Shown piece after piece: positions 3,089 through 18,669 of a stretch of DNA of 24,690 nt (the stretch's first letter is position 1; the number at the start of each line of letters is the position of its first letter). The position numbers and the translations under genes are program-made. Under the pieces are notes generated by a model. The model was not told where the DNA came from. It was given only the letters and a program-made list of their open reading frames with translations, and searched no databases. Origin of the DNA: a virus; IMG/VR virus record IMGVR_UViG_3300030104_003497, positions 17,509 through 42,198 of that record; one strand, given 5' to 3'.

Positions 3089-3291
3089 ATCTTACTTATT
3101 TGTTGTTTTATGAATTTCTCTATAATATCGCAAGAATCTGACAACCCCTGTACATATCCCCAATGTGCTCCATCGTGATATTTTACTTTAGGGGTATCTG
3201 CGTTTTCTTCTTCATATGTTATTTTATCTATTAAAGAATTTCTAACTTTATGAAGAACTTGTGTTGCGTGATAGTTAGTTATTTTACTCAT
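3085..3291 (-). CDS. Hypothetical small early protein
   Basis: 68 residues, soluble, with a charged middle (YEEENADTPKVKYHDGAHWG) and an amphipathic C-terminal helix. The ATG overlaps the end of the upstream gene by 8 bases, and the stop is shared with the start of the membrane-protein gene at 3088. It belongs to the leftward early operon. I do not recognise the family. Confidence 0.65.
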   Translation of the reverse strand: MSKITNYHATQVLHKVRNSLIDKITYEEENADTPKVKYHDGAHWGYVQGLSDSCDIIEKFIKQQISKI

Positions 3292-13597: not shown

Positions 13598-13620
13598 TAA
13601 CGTATACAATGGAGGCGTGT

Positions 13621-14358
13621 ATGAGTAAAAACAACCTTTTAAGTTGGTTAAAATCAACTGAGATTCCTTTAACTGTAATATCTAAAAAAACAAATATTAG
13701 TAGAGCTACGTTATATAACTGGATCAATGGAGGAGAGATTCGTAATAAATCTTACAATAAAGTATGGTCTTATTATGAAGAAGATATAAAAATAACAACT
13801 AATGACATAGAGATTGAAGGAGCTACTGATTTGAAAGCACAATACATAATTGATTTACAAAAAGATAAAATACAAACTCTTGAAAAAGAAAATTGTAAAT
13901 TACAAGAAACTTTACAAGGTAAAACTCCTGAATCATCACATTGGGATGATTTATCGTATCACTATAAAGCCGAAGTAGATTTACATTTCTCTGGATTTGG
14001 AGTAATTGGCAGAACAATTAATAGTGTGTCAGACATAGATAAACAATCTGAAGTATTAGGATATTCAGAAAAAGAATTAAATGCTTTATGGGATGTTGGA
14101 GTAAAACATAAAGAGATGAGCAAACATCCAATAAATAAAATATTACATAAAAGTACAACAAATGAATTAGATACTATTGGGAAAACATTGCCAACTGTAT
14201 TTAATGCTATTAAAGATATGATTGGTAATCATTACATACCTACTAGACTAATGTATATATGTAAAGATGGTAGTCACATAGGTGCTATTTCTTATAACAA
14301 AATTGATTGGAAAAATCAAAAAGTATATTCTAAAATAGCTTTTTTAATAAAAGATTAG
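13621..14358 (+). CDS. HTH regulator with coiled coil and PAS-like domain (probable lysogeny repressor)
   Basis: The start is the ATG at 13621, with GGAGG 5 bases upstream; an in-frame ATG at 13609 would lie ahead of this SD. Residues 6-36 form an HTH (LTVISKKTNISRATLYNWIN). Residues 72-98 form a heptad-like coiled coil (IIDLQKDKIQTLEKENCKLQ). Residues about 118-228 look PAS-like: EVLGYSEKELNALWDVGV, a helical middle, then LMYICKDGSHIGAISYNKID. It stands alone on the plus strand opposite the early operon, with paired operators between, as a CI-type repressor does. It lacks an S24 LexA-like protease, so induction would work differently, perhaps by ligand sensing. The PAS assignment is inferred from local pattern. 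Confidence 0.65.
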   Translation: MSKNNLLSWLKSTEIPLTVISKKTNISRATLYNWINGGEIRNKSYNKVWSYYEEDIKITTNDIEIEGATDLKAQYIIDLQKDKIQTLEKENCKLQETLQGKTPESSHWDDLSYHYKAEVDLHFSGFGVIGRTINSVSDIDKQSEVLGYSEKELNALWDVGVKHKEMSKHPINKILHKSTTNELDTIGKTLPTVFNAIKDMIGNHYIPTRLMYICKDGSHIGAISYNKIDWKNQKVYSKIAFLIKD

Positions 14359-14386
14359 GTGAACTATACGTTCACATAGTTTTTTT
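14359..14386 (+). terminator. Intrinsic terminator after the regulator gene
   Basis: AACTAT (14362-14367) pairs with ATAGTT (14376-14381), which runs straight into a T tract; an alternative stem GTGAAC/GTTCAC overlaps it. It directly follows the stop codon. Confidence 0.65.
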
Positions 14387-14527: not shown

Positions 14528-14533
14528 TATATT

Positions 14534-15946
14534 TTACTTAGAATATTTACGACCGCCTGCAGTCAGTTTATATTCTTTGACTAACTCAACACCTTCTCCT
14601 TTATAAAATGGTTCTACCCATTTAATGCAACGCACCATTTTCTTTCCATAATCATCGTATTTCTCTTCTTGATGCATGTGTTGAGGTATTTGTGCTATTT
14701 TGTTCTGATCTTTATACCAGAACGAATGCCAATGACCTTTAACACGTATAAGGTGTTTTAGTTTTCTAGTTACTTTAGTGCCATCTCTCTTACTATAATA
14801 GATAGCATTGTTTTTTTGACCATTGATATAAGCAGTTCTAGTACTACCTAATACTGTATGGTCAGTTTGTGTTAGTTCTCTATCAATGAATTTTCTAACA
14901 CGATTCTTAGCTATTGGTTTTTCATCCATTTTAACAAATACTGCGTCTGTGTTTACAGAAGTAATGTATAGTACAGTTTGTATAGCTAGATTAGAATATT
15001 TATATATTCTAGCATTACTTTCTTCTTCTTTTTCATGCATTTCAATATCAATACATACTACTTTATCTATAGAATTTTGTAGTTGTTGTTTTATATTGTT
15101 TCCATGAGGTATCTTTAATTCCCAGTACACTGTTTCTGGGTCAATAGGACTTATATACTTCCCGTGTTTGTTATTTTTTGGAGGTTTTGCATACATTGAA
15201 ATTCTCAATATATTGCAGTCAACCATTTCTTCTAAATTAACAAACATTCCTTCAAACTCTATTTTATCATCACAACAAGTACAACTTTCCATTGAAAACT
15301 TAGGTGGAAACATTAAGTAAAATGACCTATTAGGAGATTTTATATAATCTGTGCTTGTTGGAAACTCAGTATCTAGCAATGCATTTGCTAAATCTTCTGT
15401 AAGGATAAATAGATTGTTTTCTTCTTGAGCAAACATGTGAAAATGAAACATAGTACGTGCCATCTTATTTAACATATTTTCTACACTAAGTAAATTTTCA
15501 CCACCTAGTTTACCTTCAACTTTTTCGTTTAATTTCTTACTATCTCTTACTTTTTTTATGTTTTTTATAAAATCTATAGCTAGTAATTGAGTGTATAATT
15601 GATGTGCTAAAAGAAACATAATAGACCTAAATGCTTTTGTTTCTGCAAAAGCAACTGGAAGCCAACTAGTATCTGATTTTACTTTTTGGTCTGTAGGTAT
15701 TTCTATATTTCTTACTTCAACAAGATTTTCCAATCCTGTTTGTTTTAATGCAGCGTCTATATACTTGTCTATATGGTCTAAAGGTATTTCTATTACTGTA
15801 TCAGATTTTATTAATTCCTGATGTTTTTCCCAGTTATAACTATTACCTATATCTCTAATTGCAGTAGGTACATCTTTAAAGTTATTGTCAAATTCAGCAC
15901 TACGCATGAATCTTTCATATATCATCATTCTTGGTACGTGGATCAT
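14534..15946 (-). CDS. AcrVA2-like protein (putative anti-CRISPR family member)
   Basis: 470 residues, SD AGGAGG before ATG. The C-terminus carries RVKGHWHSFW (401-410) followed by KWVEPF (442-447). This closely matches the end of the Cas12a inhibitor AcrVA2 as I remember it (RRGHWHGYW, then RW.P). An upstream SFYLMFPPKF segment also corresponds to its FLNLPDW region. AcrVA2 is about 322 residues, so this one has a longer N-terminal part. A CTCC cluster (SMESCTCCDDKIEF) may bind metal. AcrVA2 reduces Cas12a at the level of its synthesis. The wider family is common in phages whose hosts have no known Cas12a, so the target here is unknown. It stands alone between two structured noncoding elements. 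Confidence 0.6.
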   Translation of the reverse strand: MIHVPRMMIYERFMRSAEFDNNFKDVPTAIRDIGNSYNWEKHQELIKSDTVIEIPLDHIDKYIDAALKQTGLENLVEVRNIEIPTDQKVKSDTSWLPVAFAETKAFRSIMFLLAHQLYTQLLAIDFIKNIKKVRDSKKLNEKVEGKLGGENLLSVENMLNKMARTMFHFHMFAQEENNLFILTEDLANALLDTEFPTSTDYIKSPNRSFYLMFPPKFSMESCTCCDDKIEFEGMFVNLEEMVDCNILRISMYAKPPKNNKHGKYISPIDPETVYWELKIPHGNNIKQQLQNSIDKVVCIDIEMHEKEEESNARIYKYSNLAIQTVLYITSVNTDAVFVKMDEKPIAKNRVRKFIDRELTQTDHTVLGSTRTAYINGQKNNAIYYSKRDGTKVTRKLKHLIRVKGHWHSFWYKDQNKIAQIPQHMHQEEKYDDYGKKMVRCIKWVEPFYKGEGVELVKEYKLTAGGRKYSK

Positions 15947-16040
15947 ATGACCTCCTTTCTTGTTAATTGTTGCTTGTTAAAGTATGTTAAATATTTAAGA
16001 AACTGCATCTGTCCCCGTTGGTAAGATATTCCAGTTACGG

Positions 16041-16160
16041 TCAAGATATAGCAATGCGTGCTTTAGAATCACGTTTACATTGCGTAGAACATCCATAGCA
16101 ACTGCTAGCTAAACAGTTGAGATGAATTATTAAGTTCTCCGATACATAGGACTTCTCCAT
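16041..16160 (-). CDS. Tentative 39-aa Cys-rich mini-protein
   Basis: Starts MEKSYVSENLIIHLNCLASS with C16, C21, C24 and C28 followed by a basic helix (KRDSKARIA), a pattern compatible with a metal knuckle. There is no good SD and the DNA lies in a hairpin-rich block, so chance is possible. Confidence 0.3.
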   Translation of the reverse strand: MEKSYVSENLIIHLNCLASSCYGCSTQCKRDSKARIAIS

Positions 16161-16202
16161 CTTCGGTAATGAGAGATATAATTTATACGACCTAACGATA
16201 GG

Positions 16203-16292
16203 TTAACATTCCTTGTGCTCATCACATCTCTTTAGGAGACCAACTGACAACACTACAGTTACAACAACTGTTATCGTTTTTATGCACACCAT
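16203..16292 (-). CDS. Tentative 29-aa hydrophobic peptide
   Basis: Starts MVCIKTITVVVTVVLSVGLL and ends KRCDEHKEC: a short membrane helix plus a charged Cys-containing tail, like small phage or toxin-type membrane peptides. No SD is seen, and the ORF overlaps hairpins. Confidence 0.25.
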   Translation of the reverse strand: MVCIKTITVVVTVVLSVGLLKRCDEHKEC

Positions 16293-16397
16293 TATATCAG
16301 TGGTGATAGCATACATAGGAAGGCACTAAAGATTAGTTTAGTTTGTTCTCACTATATCTTGGTAGTTACACATATCAAATGCAGTTTCCAATAATTC

Positions 16398-16430
16398 TAT
16401 AAATAGAGGAAGCAGTTCTTGTTACTGCTT
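16398..16430 (-). promoter_or_regulatory. Conserved motif copy d with hairpin
   Basis: Plus-strand TATAAATAGAGGAA (16398-16411), a slightly diverged copy, joined to hairpin AAGCAGT/ACTGCTT (16410-16430). A 10-codon ATG mini-ORF begins 25 bases further along the minus strand (16373), but no gene follows, so it may head a noncoding transcript. Confidence 0.5.
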
Positions 16431-16511
16431 GTTAGGTATACGTTTTGGGGGCAACTTGCAAGAGTTGACCTTATGATAATGAGCCTCGTAAGAGGCACCT
16501 CGTTTAGAGAA

Positions 16512-16537
16512 GTATAGGGCACTTTCGTACCCTATAC
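16512..16537 (-). terminator. Hairpin after the 115-aa gene
   Basis: GTATAGGG pairs with CCCTATAC, eleven bases past the stop of the gene at 16549. The following minus-strand bases (TTCTCT) are only weakly T-rich. Confidence 0.45.
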
Positions 16538-16548
16538 AACCAATCAAC

Positions 16549-16896: not shown

Positions 16897-16942
16897 ACTA
16901 AATACTCCTTACTTATGGTTTGATATATCGTTGTTGATATAC

Positions 16943-16988
16943 CAGAGATAAAGGAAGAAGTTTAGCCCACGACACGAGGTCATGGGCT
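16943..16988 (-). promoter_or_regulatory. Conserved motif copy i with hairpin
   Basis: Motif CAGAGATAAAGGAA at 16943-16956, preceded on the minus strand by hairpin AGCCCATGAC/GTCGTGGGCT (16964-16988). It lies 46 bases before the ATG at 16896. The hairpin ends the cassette of the 45-aa gene. Confidence 0.55.
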
Positions 16989-16995
16989 AGTATGG

Positions 16996-17133
16996 CTATT
17001 CTTGGAAATATTTATTAGCCTCTTCTAAAGCAAGTATCTCTGTAGGATACTCTTCTTTATTAACTCCAATTAATGAGCCATTTTCAGAAATGAATTGAAA
17101 GAACTCTTCGGTAATAGAATGTAATCTTACCAT
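16996..17133 (-). CDS. Hypothetical 45-aa cassette protein
   Basis: Starts MVRLHSITEEFFQFISENGS, acidic and helical, ending EEANKYFQE. Leader GGGAGTTACAAATG fixes the start; motif copy e is 27 bases upstream and a hairpin closes the unit 8 bases after the stop. Function unknown. Confidence 0.6.
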   Translation of the reverse strand: MVRLHSITEEFFQFISENGSLIGVNKEEYPTEILALEEANKYFQE

Positions 17134-17160
17134 TTGTAACTCCCTGTTGTTAAAGAATAT

Positions 17161-17205
17161 CATAGATAAAGGAAAAAAAGAGCCTAGTACGAAGTACTAG
17201 GCTCT
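17161..17205 (-). terminator. Motif copy e with perfect 12-bp terminator
   Basis: AGAGCCTAGTAC and GTACTAGGCTCT (17179-17205) form a perfect stem with a three-base loop. On the minus strand a run of seven Ts follows, then motif TTCCTTTATCTATG (17161-17174). A clear terminator for the 50-aa gene, joined directly to the motif that precedes the next gene. Confidence 0.75.
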
Positions 17206-17210
17206 AAGTG

Positions 17211-17363
17211 TTACTTTTTTATGTGTTTAGTCACAGATGTTTTGAAAGGCTCTCCTTTACGATTCTTTTTATTAGGGATGGTCTTTTGAATTACGACCAT
17301 CTTCATTTTATTATTAGAAGAGATTACTTTAGTTGTGCTTTTATTTTTCTTTTTTTTAGACAT
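17211..17363 (-). CDS. Very basic 50-aa cassette protein
   Basis: Starts MSKKKKNKSTTKVISSNNKM; roughly one residue in three is Lys or Arg, with none of the acidic helices seen in neighbours. SD TTGGAGG precedes the ATG; motif copy f is 25 bases upstream; the terminator at 17173-17205 follows 5 bases after the stop. Likely binds nucleic acid or ribosomes, or is a small DNA-compaction protein; this is inference from composition. Confidence 0.6.
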   Translation of the reverse strand: MSKKKKNKSTTKVISSNNKMKMVVIQKTIPNKKNRKGEPFKTSVTKHIKK

Positions 17364-17388
17364 ATGTCCTCCAATTATTAAATATTAT

Positions 17389-17427
17389 CAGAAATAAAGG
17401 AAGAGGCTAGTACGAAGTACCAGCCTC
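17389..17427 (-). terminator. Motif copy f with hairpin
   Basis: GAGGCTAGTAC/GTACCAGCCTC (17403-17427, loop GAA) is almost the same hairpin as the one at 17179-17205. The motif CAGAAATAAAGGAA (17389-17402) abuts it. Confidence 0.65.
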
Positions 17428-17475
17428 TATATTACCACAACTTCATTCCATTGCTGAGAAGGACTTTTACGTGGT

Positions 17476-17748
17476 TTAGTGTTCCTGTATTGTCAATTCA
17501 TGACATGGGTTACATACACCATAATCTGTGACTATGGAATCGTAACCGCATGATGGACAATCTTCATTTGATTCATCTTTAGACATCATTTCGTTAAAGG
17601 TAGCTTTACCTTTATCAATGGTGTAAGATGTGAGCTTAGTGATACGTTTACTACCTTTAGCAACGTAGATACCAGCTATAACAGTTGTACCTATAGCAAA
17701 GTAGCCAGTATTCTTTGCAAGGTCTTTGGTTTTATTAATTAGTTTCAT
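17476..17748 (-). CDS. Membrane-anchored zinc-ribbon protein
   Basis: 90 residues. A basic N-terminus, one membrane helix at about 15-30 (GYFAIGTTVIAGIYVA), a basic linker (KGSKRITKLT), then a C-terminal zinc ribbon with C64, C67, C79 and C82 (CPSCGYD and CNPC). SD AGGAGT precedes the ATG; motif copy g lies 26 bases upstream. This would put a zinc ribbon on the cytoplasmic face of the inner membrane, fitting a host-interaction or superinfection-exclusion role, which is unproven. Confidence 0.65.
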   Translation of the reverse strand: MKLINKTKDLAKNTGYFAIGTTVIAGIYVAKGSKRITKLTSYTIDKGKATFNEMMSKDESNEDCPSCGYDSIVTDYGVCNPCHELTIQEH

Positions 17749-17774
17749 AAGAACTCCTATTTATTGATAATTAT

Positions 17775-17807
17775 CAGAGATGAAGGAAAGGGGAGCTTTA
17801 GCTCCCC
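17775..17807 (-). terminator. Motif copy g with perfect hairpin
   Basis: GGGGAGC/GCTCCCC (17790-17807, loop TTTA) forms a strong GC-rich stem; on the minus strand it runs into TTTCCTT. Motif CAGAGATGAAGGAA is at 17775-17788. Confidence 0.65.
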
Positions 17808-17819
17808 CTCTTATTATAT

Positions 17820-17951
17820 TCATCCAATAGTTGATAAACATATAGCTTGATAATCAACTACGTGCTGAGAATATGGTTCATCAACTACTATTGCTGGTGT
17901 TTGATTCATATTGTATTCATATTTTTCTATTATTTCTTTTATTGTATTCAT
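17820..17951 (-). CDS. Hypothetical 43-aa cassette protein
   Basis: Starts MNTIKEIIEKYEYNMNQTPA, a short helix followed by IVVDEPYSQHVVDYQAICLS. AAGGAAA about 10 bases upstream acts as SD; motif copy h is 22 bases upstream; the hairpin at 17790-17807 follows the stop. Function unknown. Confidence 0.55.
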   Translation of the reverse strand: MNTIKEIIEKYEYNMNQTPAIVVDEPYSQHVVDYQAICLSTIG

Positions 17952-17973
17952 AGTGTATTTCCTTAAGTTAATT

Positions 17974-17987
17974 CATAGATAAAGGAA
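17974..17987 (-). promoter_or_regulatory. Conserved 14-base motif, copy h
   Basis: Plus-strand CATAGATAAAGGAA, identical to copy e. It sits 22 bases before the ATG at 17951. Only a weak CTAA/TTAG hairpin precedes it. Confidence 0.55.
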
Positions 17988-18065
17988 ATATATATGGTGG
18001 CTAATTGTTGTTAGGTATTGATAAAGATAAAAGATACTGAGCGAGCGTAAGCAAGCACATCCTTT

Positions 18066-18097
18066 AAAAAAAAGCACAAAGGAGCTACCTCTGTGCT
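18066..18097 (-). terminator. Strong minus-strand intrinsic terminator
   Basis: AGCACAGAGG pairs with CCTTTGTGCT (one mismatch), followed on the minus strand by eight Ts (18066-18073 as As on plus). It marks the end of a leftward transcript starting near 18260. Confidence 0.75.
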
Positions 18098-18206
18098 ACT
18101 CATCTAGTAGTATGGAATATTCAACTGATAGGTGAGTACTATCAGTATCCACGGAGCACACCTGAGAGATTGAGAAGCTAGTCTCATATCTGGTGGTCTC
18201 TACCAT
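18096..18206 (-). CDS. Tentative 36-aa ORF within possible ncRNA
   Basis: Starts MVETTRYETSFSISQVCSVD and stops inside the terminator stem. There is no clear SD (AGAGA 9 bases upstream), and the composition is Ser/Thr-rich. It may be a real cassette gene or chance within a structured RNA. Confidence 0.25.
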   Translation of the reverse strand: MVETTRYETSFSISQVCSVDTDSTHLSVEYSILLDE

Positions 18207-18265
18207 ACCAAGTGTATCTCTATCACTTGCTCTTTAGCAAAGTAATGCTAAGAAGGTATGTATAC

Positions 18266-18279
18266 CATAGATAAAGAAT
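18266..18279 (-). promoter_or_regulatory. Degenerate motif copy l
   Basis: Plus-strand CATAGATAAAGAAT matches the first eleven consensus bases plus one more. It lies at the head of the hairpin-rich segment that ends in the terminator at 18066-18097. Confidence 0.4.
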
Positions 18280-18300
18280 TTCAACTACATTAGGTAACTG

Positions 18301-18669
18301 TAAGGATTAGTAATAGATATGCGTGTGAGTGTGTGTATATGGGGGTGTATCTGGATACGGTGGTAGTACGAGGTGTAGCAAGGCTGCGAGGAACGAGCAG
18401 GGGTATGCTACCTCTGTACGTAAGGGTGGGTGTATAGTTACGGGTGAGTTAACTTTAACGTAACTAGAAATAGTTAACGAACTCAATCTCAATCATTGAA
18501 CTCAACGAGATCAAACCCAAGCACCCCGATTTCAAGGGGGTAGGGTAACGTATACATCCCTCACACACATTCTACTACTATTTTCTACAAGAGTACGGAA
18601 CATTATATTAAAGATAAGCGTTGTAATAAAGTATCTTACAACTTTAACTTAAAGTAGAACTTTAATATT
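18301..18669. other. Divergence region, G-skewed, possible origin or master control region
   Basis: All genes to its left (to 14534) run leftward and all to its right run rightward. By hand count 18321-18440 has 49 G and 14 C, while the following 60 bases turn C-rich. A bulged hairpin GTACGAGGTGTAGCA (18366-18380) with TGCTACCTCTGTAC (18406-18419) is present. GTGTGTATATGGGGGTGTAT (18331-18350) imperfectly pairs with ATACATCCCTCACACAC (18552-18568). No convincing ORF. Could be a replication origin, a packaging site, or both. Confidence 0.45.
18641..18655. promoter_or_regulatory. Palindrome before the first late gene
   Basis: ACTTTAACTTAAAGT is a perfect 7-bp inverted repeat around a central C, 14 bases before the ATG at 18670. 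A related site, ACTTTTTAGTTAAAGT, precedes the portal gene. Possible late regulator binding sites. Confidence 0.4.

Follow-up and report, generated by a model that had tools for sequence, protein, structure and literature searches.

The window analysed here is a stretch of 24,690 nucleotides, corresponding to bases 17509-42198 of the 42,198-base virus record IMGVR_UViG_3300030104_003497. Its minus strand encodes a 470-residue protein, and the gene, its parts and the features next to it are as follows (residue numbers refer to this protein).

14534..15946, minus strand: coding sequence of 470 aa with an ATG start, a divergent AcrVA2/FinQ-superfamily protein
15951..15957, minus strand: Shine-Dalgarno sequence AAGGAGG, ahead of the ATG of the 470-residue frame
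15665..15946, minus strand: extra N-terminal region, residues 1-94, lacking in AcrVA2 and helical by low-confidence prediction
14597..15664, minus strand: AcrVA2-like core, residues 95-450, by the AlphaFold core model, Foldseek and structural Z-score
15302..15322, minus strand: FYLMFPP, residues 209-215, counterpart of the family strand P-x-W-C/S-x-Y-I-E-x-P
15272..15283, minus strand: CTCC, residues 222-225, a loop insertion confined to the window clade
15230..15253, minus strand: EGMFVNLE, residues 232-239, counterpart of the family motif GFF-x-x-L-E
14942..14992, minus strand: NLAIQTVLYITSVNTDA, residues 319-335, counterpart of the family helix LLLYLCS-x-N-A-E-I
14717..14755, minus strand: HLIRVKGHWHSFW, residues 398-410, counterpart of the family signature PHxRR(A/G)HWHxYW and two residues longer
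14606..14623, minus strand: KWVEPF, residues 442-447, counterpart of the family motif KWLPP
13609..14358, plus strand: convergent neighbour of 249 aa, a possible repressor with an HTH-like N-terminus
14359..14375, either strand: hairpin GTGAACTATACGTTCAC between the convergent genes, terminator-like on both strands

The 470-residue frame is a real gene, as it is preceded by a strong ribosome-binding site and has evolved under purifying selection, with dN/dS values of about 0.1-0.16 (0.11 against L001 and 0.16 against L002). The initial annotation, which had placed a frame of this length at these coordinates and on this strand, had also singled out GHWHSFW (residues 404-410), KWVEPF and FYLMFPP as AcrVA2 landmarks; all three are present, their order in the alignment is that of the AcrVA2 family, and the likeness goes beyond chance according to profiles built without the window clade. 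P205, shortly ahead of FYLMFPP, is near-invariant. The greater length claimed for the protein is likewise borne out, the surplus over the 323-residue chain of 7ci1 being about 94 N-terminal residues plus loops, and structural alignment to 7ci1 starts at residue 67-104. The CTCC cluster noted at the same time does occur in the frame and in its clade (as CICC in L002), but it is a clade-specific loop and not a family feature, the run being absent from the wider family. A metal site formed by its three cysteines (C222, C224 and C225), found in the window clade only, was considered as a possibility.

Homology to AcrVA2 was assessed with profiles from which the window clade had been left out, comprising 15 or 91 AcrVA2-family sequences. 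The 15-sequence profile matches the window protein with an E-value of 9.2e-12 and the 91-sequence profile with one of 5.7e-16 (2.1e-12 among 3,418 targets), while a broader family profile gives 5e-10 among 1,418 ORFs and 2,000 shuffled sequences; none of the 2,000 shuffles or the non-family ORFs matched the family profile at E <= 10, only the family and the window clade doing so. Comparison of the window clade with the family by hhalign gives a probability of 96.5% (E 8.7e-10), and the sole notable PHROG for the frame is phrog_6160 (E 2.6e-4). Searches of Pfam, NCBIfam and PADLOC returned no family match, and tblastn against the phage collection returned no relative. A chance motif match would be in keeping with pairwise BLASTP, which recovers the short motif only (E 3e-4), and with the failure of phmmer against the PDB to find 7ci1, which a three-sequence profile also missed. 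However, residues 150-394, from which the C-terminal motif is excluded, reach 1.5e-10 when searched as a single target, and the profile match therefore does not depend on the HWH motif; coincidence is contradicted by the profile, profile-profile and fold evidence, the motif-free part included, and is very improbable.

The window protein keeps 16 of the 23 columns that are shared by at least 80% of the family. It contains the signature HxRR(A/G)HWHxYWxG...W in the form of H398, R401, H405, W406, H407, W410 and W443, where H398, H405, W406, H407 and W410 are conserved in 96-100% of the family and W443 in 97%, with a two-residue insertion and with the loss of one conserved Arg and of the Gly that follows the last Trp. 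Outside the clade, family members are only about 11-22% identical to it, and the target, or even the activity, may therefore have changed. The 470-residue phage protein is a remote homologue of AcrVA2 and belongs almost certainly to the AcrVA2/FinQ superfamily.

The AcrVA2 fold is matched by prediction. Modelled in full with 22 sequences, the protein gives a weak AlphaFold2 prediction, with a pLDDT of 48 and a pTM of 0.51, while that of residues 95-470 (78 sequences) reaches a pLDDT of 70 and a pTM of 0.74, the C-terminal module being near 90. Searched against the PDB with Foldseek, both models retrieve only AcrVA2 (7ci1/7ci2) below an E-value of 0.001, with 3.8e-8 for the full-length model and 8.4e-9, to 7ci2, for the core. 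VIA-align gives a Z-score of 12.8 between the full-length model and AcrVA2 (250 residues, rmsd 5.3; next entry Z 5.7) and of 12.6 between the core model and 7ci1 (228 residues, rmsd 4.9; next unrelated entry Z 3.3). Both models are of moderate confidence and had family sequences in their input alignments, so they back the alignment and are not an independent proof of homology. The C-terminal strands also weakly resemble ribosome-bound HflXr (Z 2.4), a likeness that was put down to chance. The initial annotation had proposed a profile or structural comparison with AcrVA2 as its check, and the similarity holds by profile, profile-profile alignment and predicted fold, exceeding the short motif.

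Phrog_6160, which carries no assigned function, is the AcrVA2 family. The phage-borne ORF43 product of Shewanella phage vB_SbaS_Y11, annotated as AcrVA2 (OQ927986; PMC10846135), matches phrog_6160 at 1.1e-58 and the crystallised AcrVA2 7ci1 at 1.5e-72; with this protein as query, relatives were found in phages of Moraxella, Leptospira, Pasteurella, Lactobacillus, Erwinia and Dickeya in the phage collection and in 607 records of the plasmid collection, many of them annotated as FinQ. Two HWH patterns identified about 105 contigs in IMG/VR, and all of the ORFs extracted from them (94/94) belong to the family. FinQ itself is a member, with E-values of 4e-15 to the Y11 AcrVA2 and 4.1e-18 to 7ci1. 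The family is large and mostly unannotated, spanning plasmids and the phages of many hosts. None of the papers searched names AcrVA2 together with FinQ, and priority is not claimed. Two annotations in the family deserve mention: FinQ of the E. coli IncI plasmid NZ_CP123589 (L017:2962-4053) has an annotated start at 3277, which omits about 100 open codons that align with the family, and gp126 of Erwinia phage RisingSun (L013:2701-3702) is labelled "putative mycothiosynthase", yet is an AcrVA2-family protein.

The window clade comprises three close IMG/VR members, and a search of viral contigs for intermediates returned this clade alone. In a quick maximum-likelihood tree its stem measures 3.4 changes per site and lies apart from FinQ and from the Moraxella AcrVA2-type proteins, which form their own clade with Shewanella phage Y11 (SH-aLRT 100); the window clade falls outside that clade, its exact placement being uncertain. 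With AcrVA2 of Moraxella (PDB 7CI1 and 7CI2) the window protein shares the predicted fold, the order of the landmarks, the C-terminal H...HWHxxW...W module and carriage by mobile elements, whereas it differs in its separate clade, in an identity of about 9-15% and in its length (470 aa against about 322), the addition consisting of the ~94 N-terminal residues and loops, one of which holds CTCC. FinQ shares the superfamily and the C-terminal signature, and both are accessory genes of mobile elements; however, FinQ is borne by IncI-type plasmids and targets the F tra genes in enterobacteria, while the window gene lies in the record of an uncultured tailed phage that encodes terminase, portal and integrase, and there is little identity beyond the signature. 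The Y11 protein is phage-borne like the window protein, but clusters with the proteins from Moraxella (38% to those of Mcat phages), which the window clade does not.

The convergent gene at 13609-14358 corresponds to what had been called a lysogeny regulator. A neighbour with a weak N-terminal HTH is indeed present, which makes the claim plausible, but the identity of a regulator does not follow from an HTH_17 match of E 8e-4, which is under the Pfam cut-off. This protein is 49% identical to its L047 counterpart and much more diverged than its neighbours; immunity repressors are often strongly diverged in this manner. Elsewhere in the window, positions 16900-18000 contain leftward small genes with upstream terminator-like hairpins and the shared element TTCCTTTATCTATGATATT, a possible phage promoter, while 15983-16540 and 18000-18650 are long stretches lacking listed genes, for which an Rfam search gave no match. 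A search for tRNAs found none. One giant frame of about 2,830 aa, containing a short run of undetermined bases, extends from L006:10004-17533 to position 966 of the window and may encode a virion protein.

The history of the gene differs from that of the phage backbone, and the exchanged segment can be delimited as follows.

14533..15982, no strand assigned: mobile cassette, by 96.5% blastn identity to L047 with flanks of 77-80%, and by comparison of dS

In L047, a close relative of the window phage, the gene shows 96.6% identity and a dS of 0.13, against 0.99 for terL and 0.84 for portal, and the highly identical stretch runs from 36 bases upstream of the start to the stop codon. In the distant relative L046, where the terL and portal proteins are 66% and 54% identical to those of the window, the gene is 92.6% identical in DNA, with a dS of 0.26 against 1.93 for terL and 2.98 for portal. 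The low dS of the gene beside the high dS of terL and portal indicates that it has moved between backbones as a cassette; purifying selection alone, considered as the cause of its similarity between phages, was ruled out by dS. The gene is exchangeable accessory cargo in at least two lineages of an uncultured tailed phage. As to the host, none was found in genome contigs searched for the terminase and the 470-residue frame. Among isolated phages, the matches to the terminase, portal, capsid, integrase and primase-helicase reach no more than about 20-31% identity and come from mixed hosts.

According to a review (PMC13131331), AcrVA2 acts on Cas12a by reading an N-terminal motif of the nascent protein and setting off the decay of its mRNA, and is the first case in bacteria of a specific mRNA being removed via the nascent peptide, while FinQ is an IncI fertility inhibitor, for which F tra transcription is reported to be cut short at several sites (PMC8744291). 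The mechanism proposed here is drawn from these two accounts. As the C-terminal HWH...W module is common to all members while the remainder varies, we infer a common effector module combined with a variable reader: by analogy with AcrVA2, the variable alpha/beta core would recognise one nascent polypeptide, whereupon the conserved C-terminal HWH...W...W module would cause loss of the corresponding mRNA, the target being possibly a host defence protein or a protein of a rival element. The reading as a whole, in which a divergent AcrVA2/FinQ-superfamily protein, carried as mobile phage cargo, silences one mRNA via its nascent peptide, is given a probability of about 0.6. The odds for mRNA silencing by the window protein, taken by itself and argued from analogy, are roughly even, and Cas12a is improbable as the target. 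Decay of an mRNA has been described for one family member, which counts against the reading.

The initial annotation had called the protein an AcrVA2-like anti-CRISPR candidate, of which the AcrVA2 homology stands and the anti-CRISPR step is neither supported nor refuted. A true anti-Cas12a protein, directed against a type V-A system of the phage's host, would agree with the homology, the fold match and the position as mobile phage cargo; however, the long stem that separates the window clade from the well-supported Moraxella/Y11 clade, the wide occurrence of family members in phages and IncI plasmids, and searches that found neither a host nor cas12a make it unlikely. Activity against Cas12a does not follow from membership, since the superfamily holds FinQ and many phage proteins and the clade is not nested in Moraxella AcrVA2. 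The label anti-CRISPR is accordingly not yet earned, and AcrVA2/FinQ-superfamily protein is the apt name for now. A superinfection or fertility-inhibition factor, silencing a transcript of a competing phage or plasmid as FinQ may do, is conceivable as a lesser possibility, as FinQ is a family member reported to shorten F tra transcripts (PMC8744291) and the gene passes from one phage backbone to another, but both the target element and expression in a lysogen are putative. It is rather doubtful that the protein is an early phage product regulating phage or host genes and not a counter-defence factor: its place in the leftward array, among small genes having their own terminators and promoter-like repeats, and the purifying selection on the frame accord with such a role, whereas a history unlike that of the backbone (dS 0.26 against 1.9-3.0) is cargo-like.

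What is new here is the 470-residue clade, with its about 94 extra N-terminal residues, and its cassette carried between phage backbones. For the family at large, a tentative extension, held to be less likely than not, is that AcrVA2, FinQ and many unannotated phage relatives may all be mRNA silencers of one superfamily, guided by nascent peptides and interchangeable in their targets, in which the window clade would be an enlarged and far-diverged branch with a protein target other than Cas12a, and the "transcription termination" ascribed to FinQ would be a loss of tra mRNA during its translation. Standing at the far edge of the family, the window clade reveals residues that are dispensable for the fold. 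If the mechanism is common to the superfamily, the latter would offer many such silencers from nature, each kind with its own target, and FinQ, a poorly explained plasmid inhibitor, would gain a testable mechanism.
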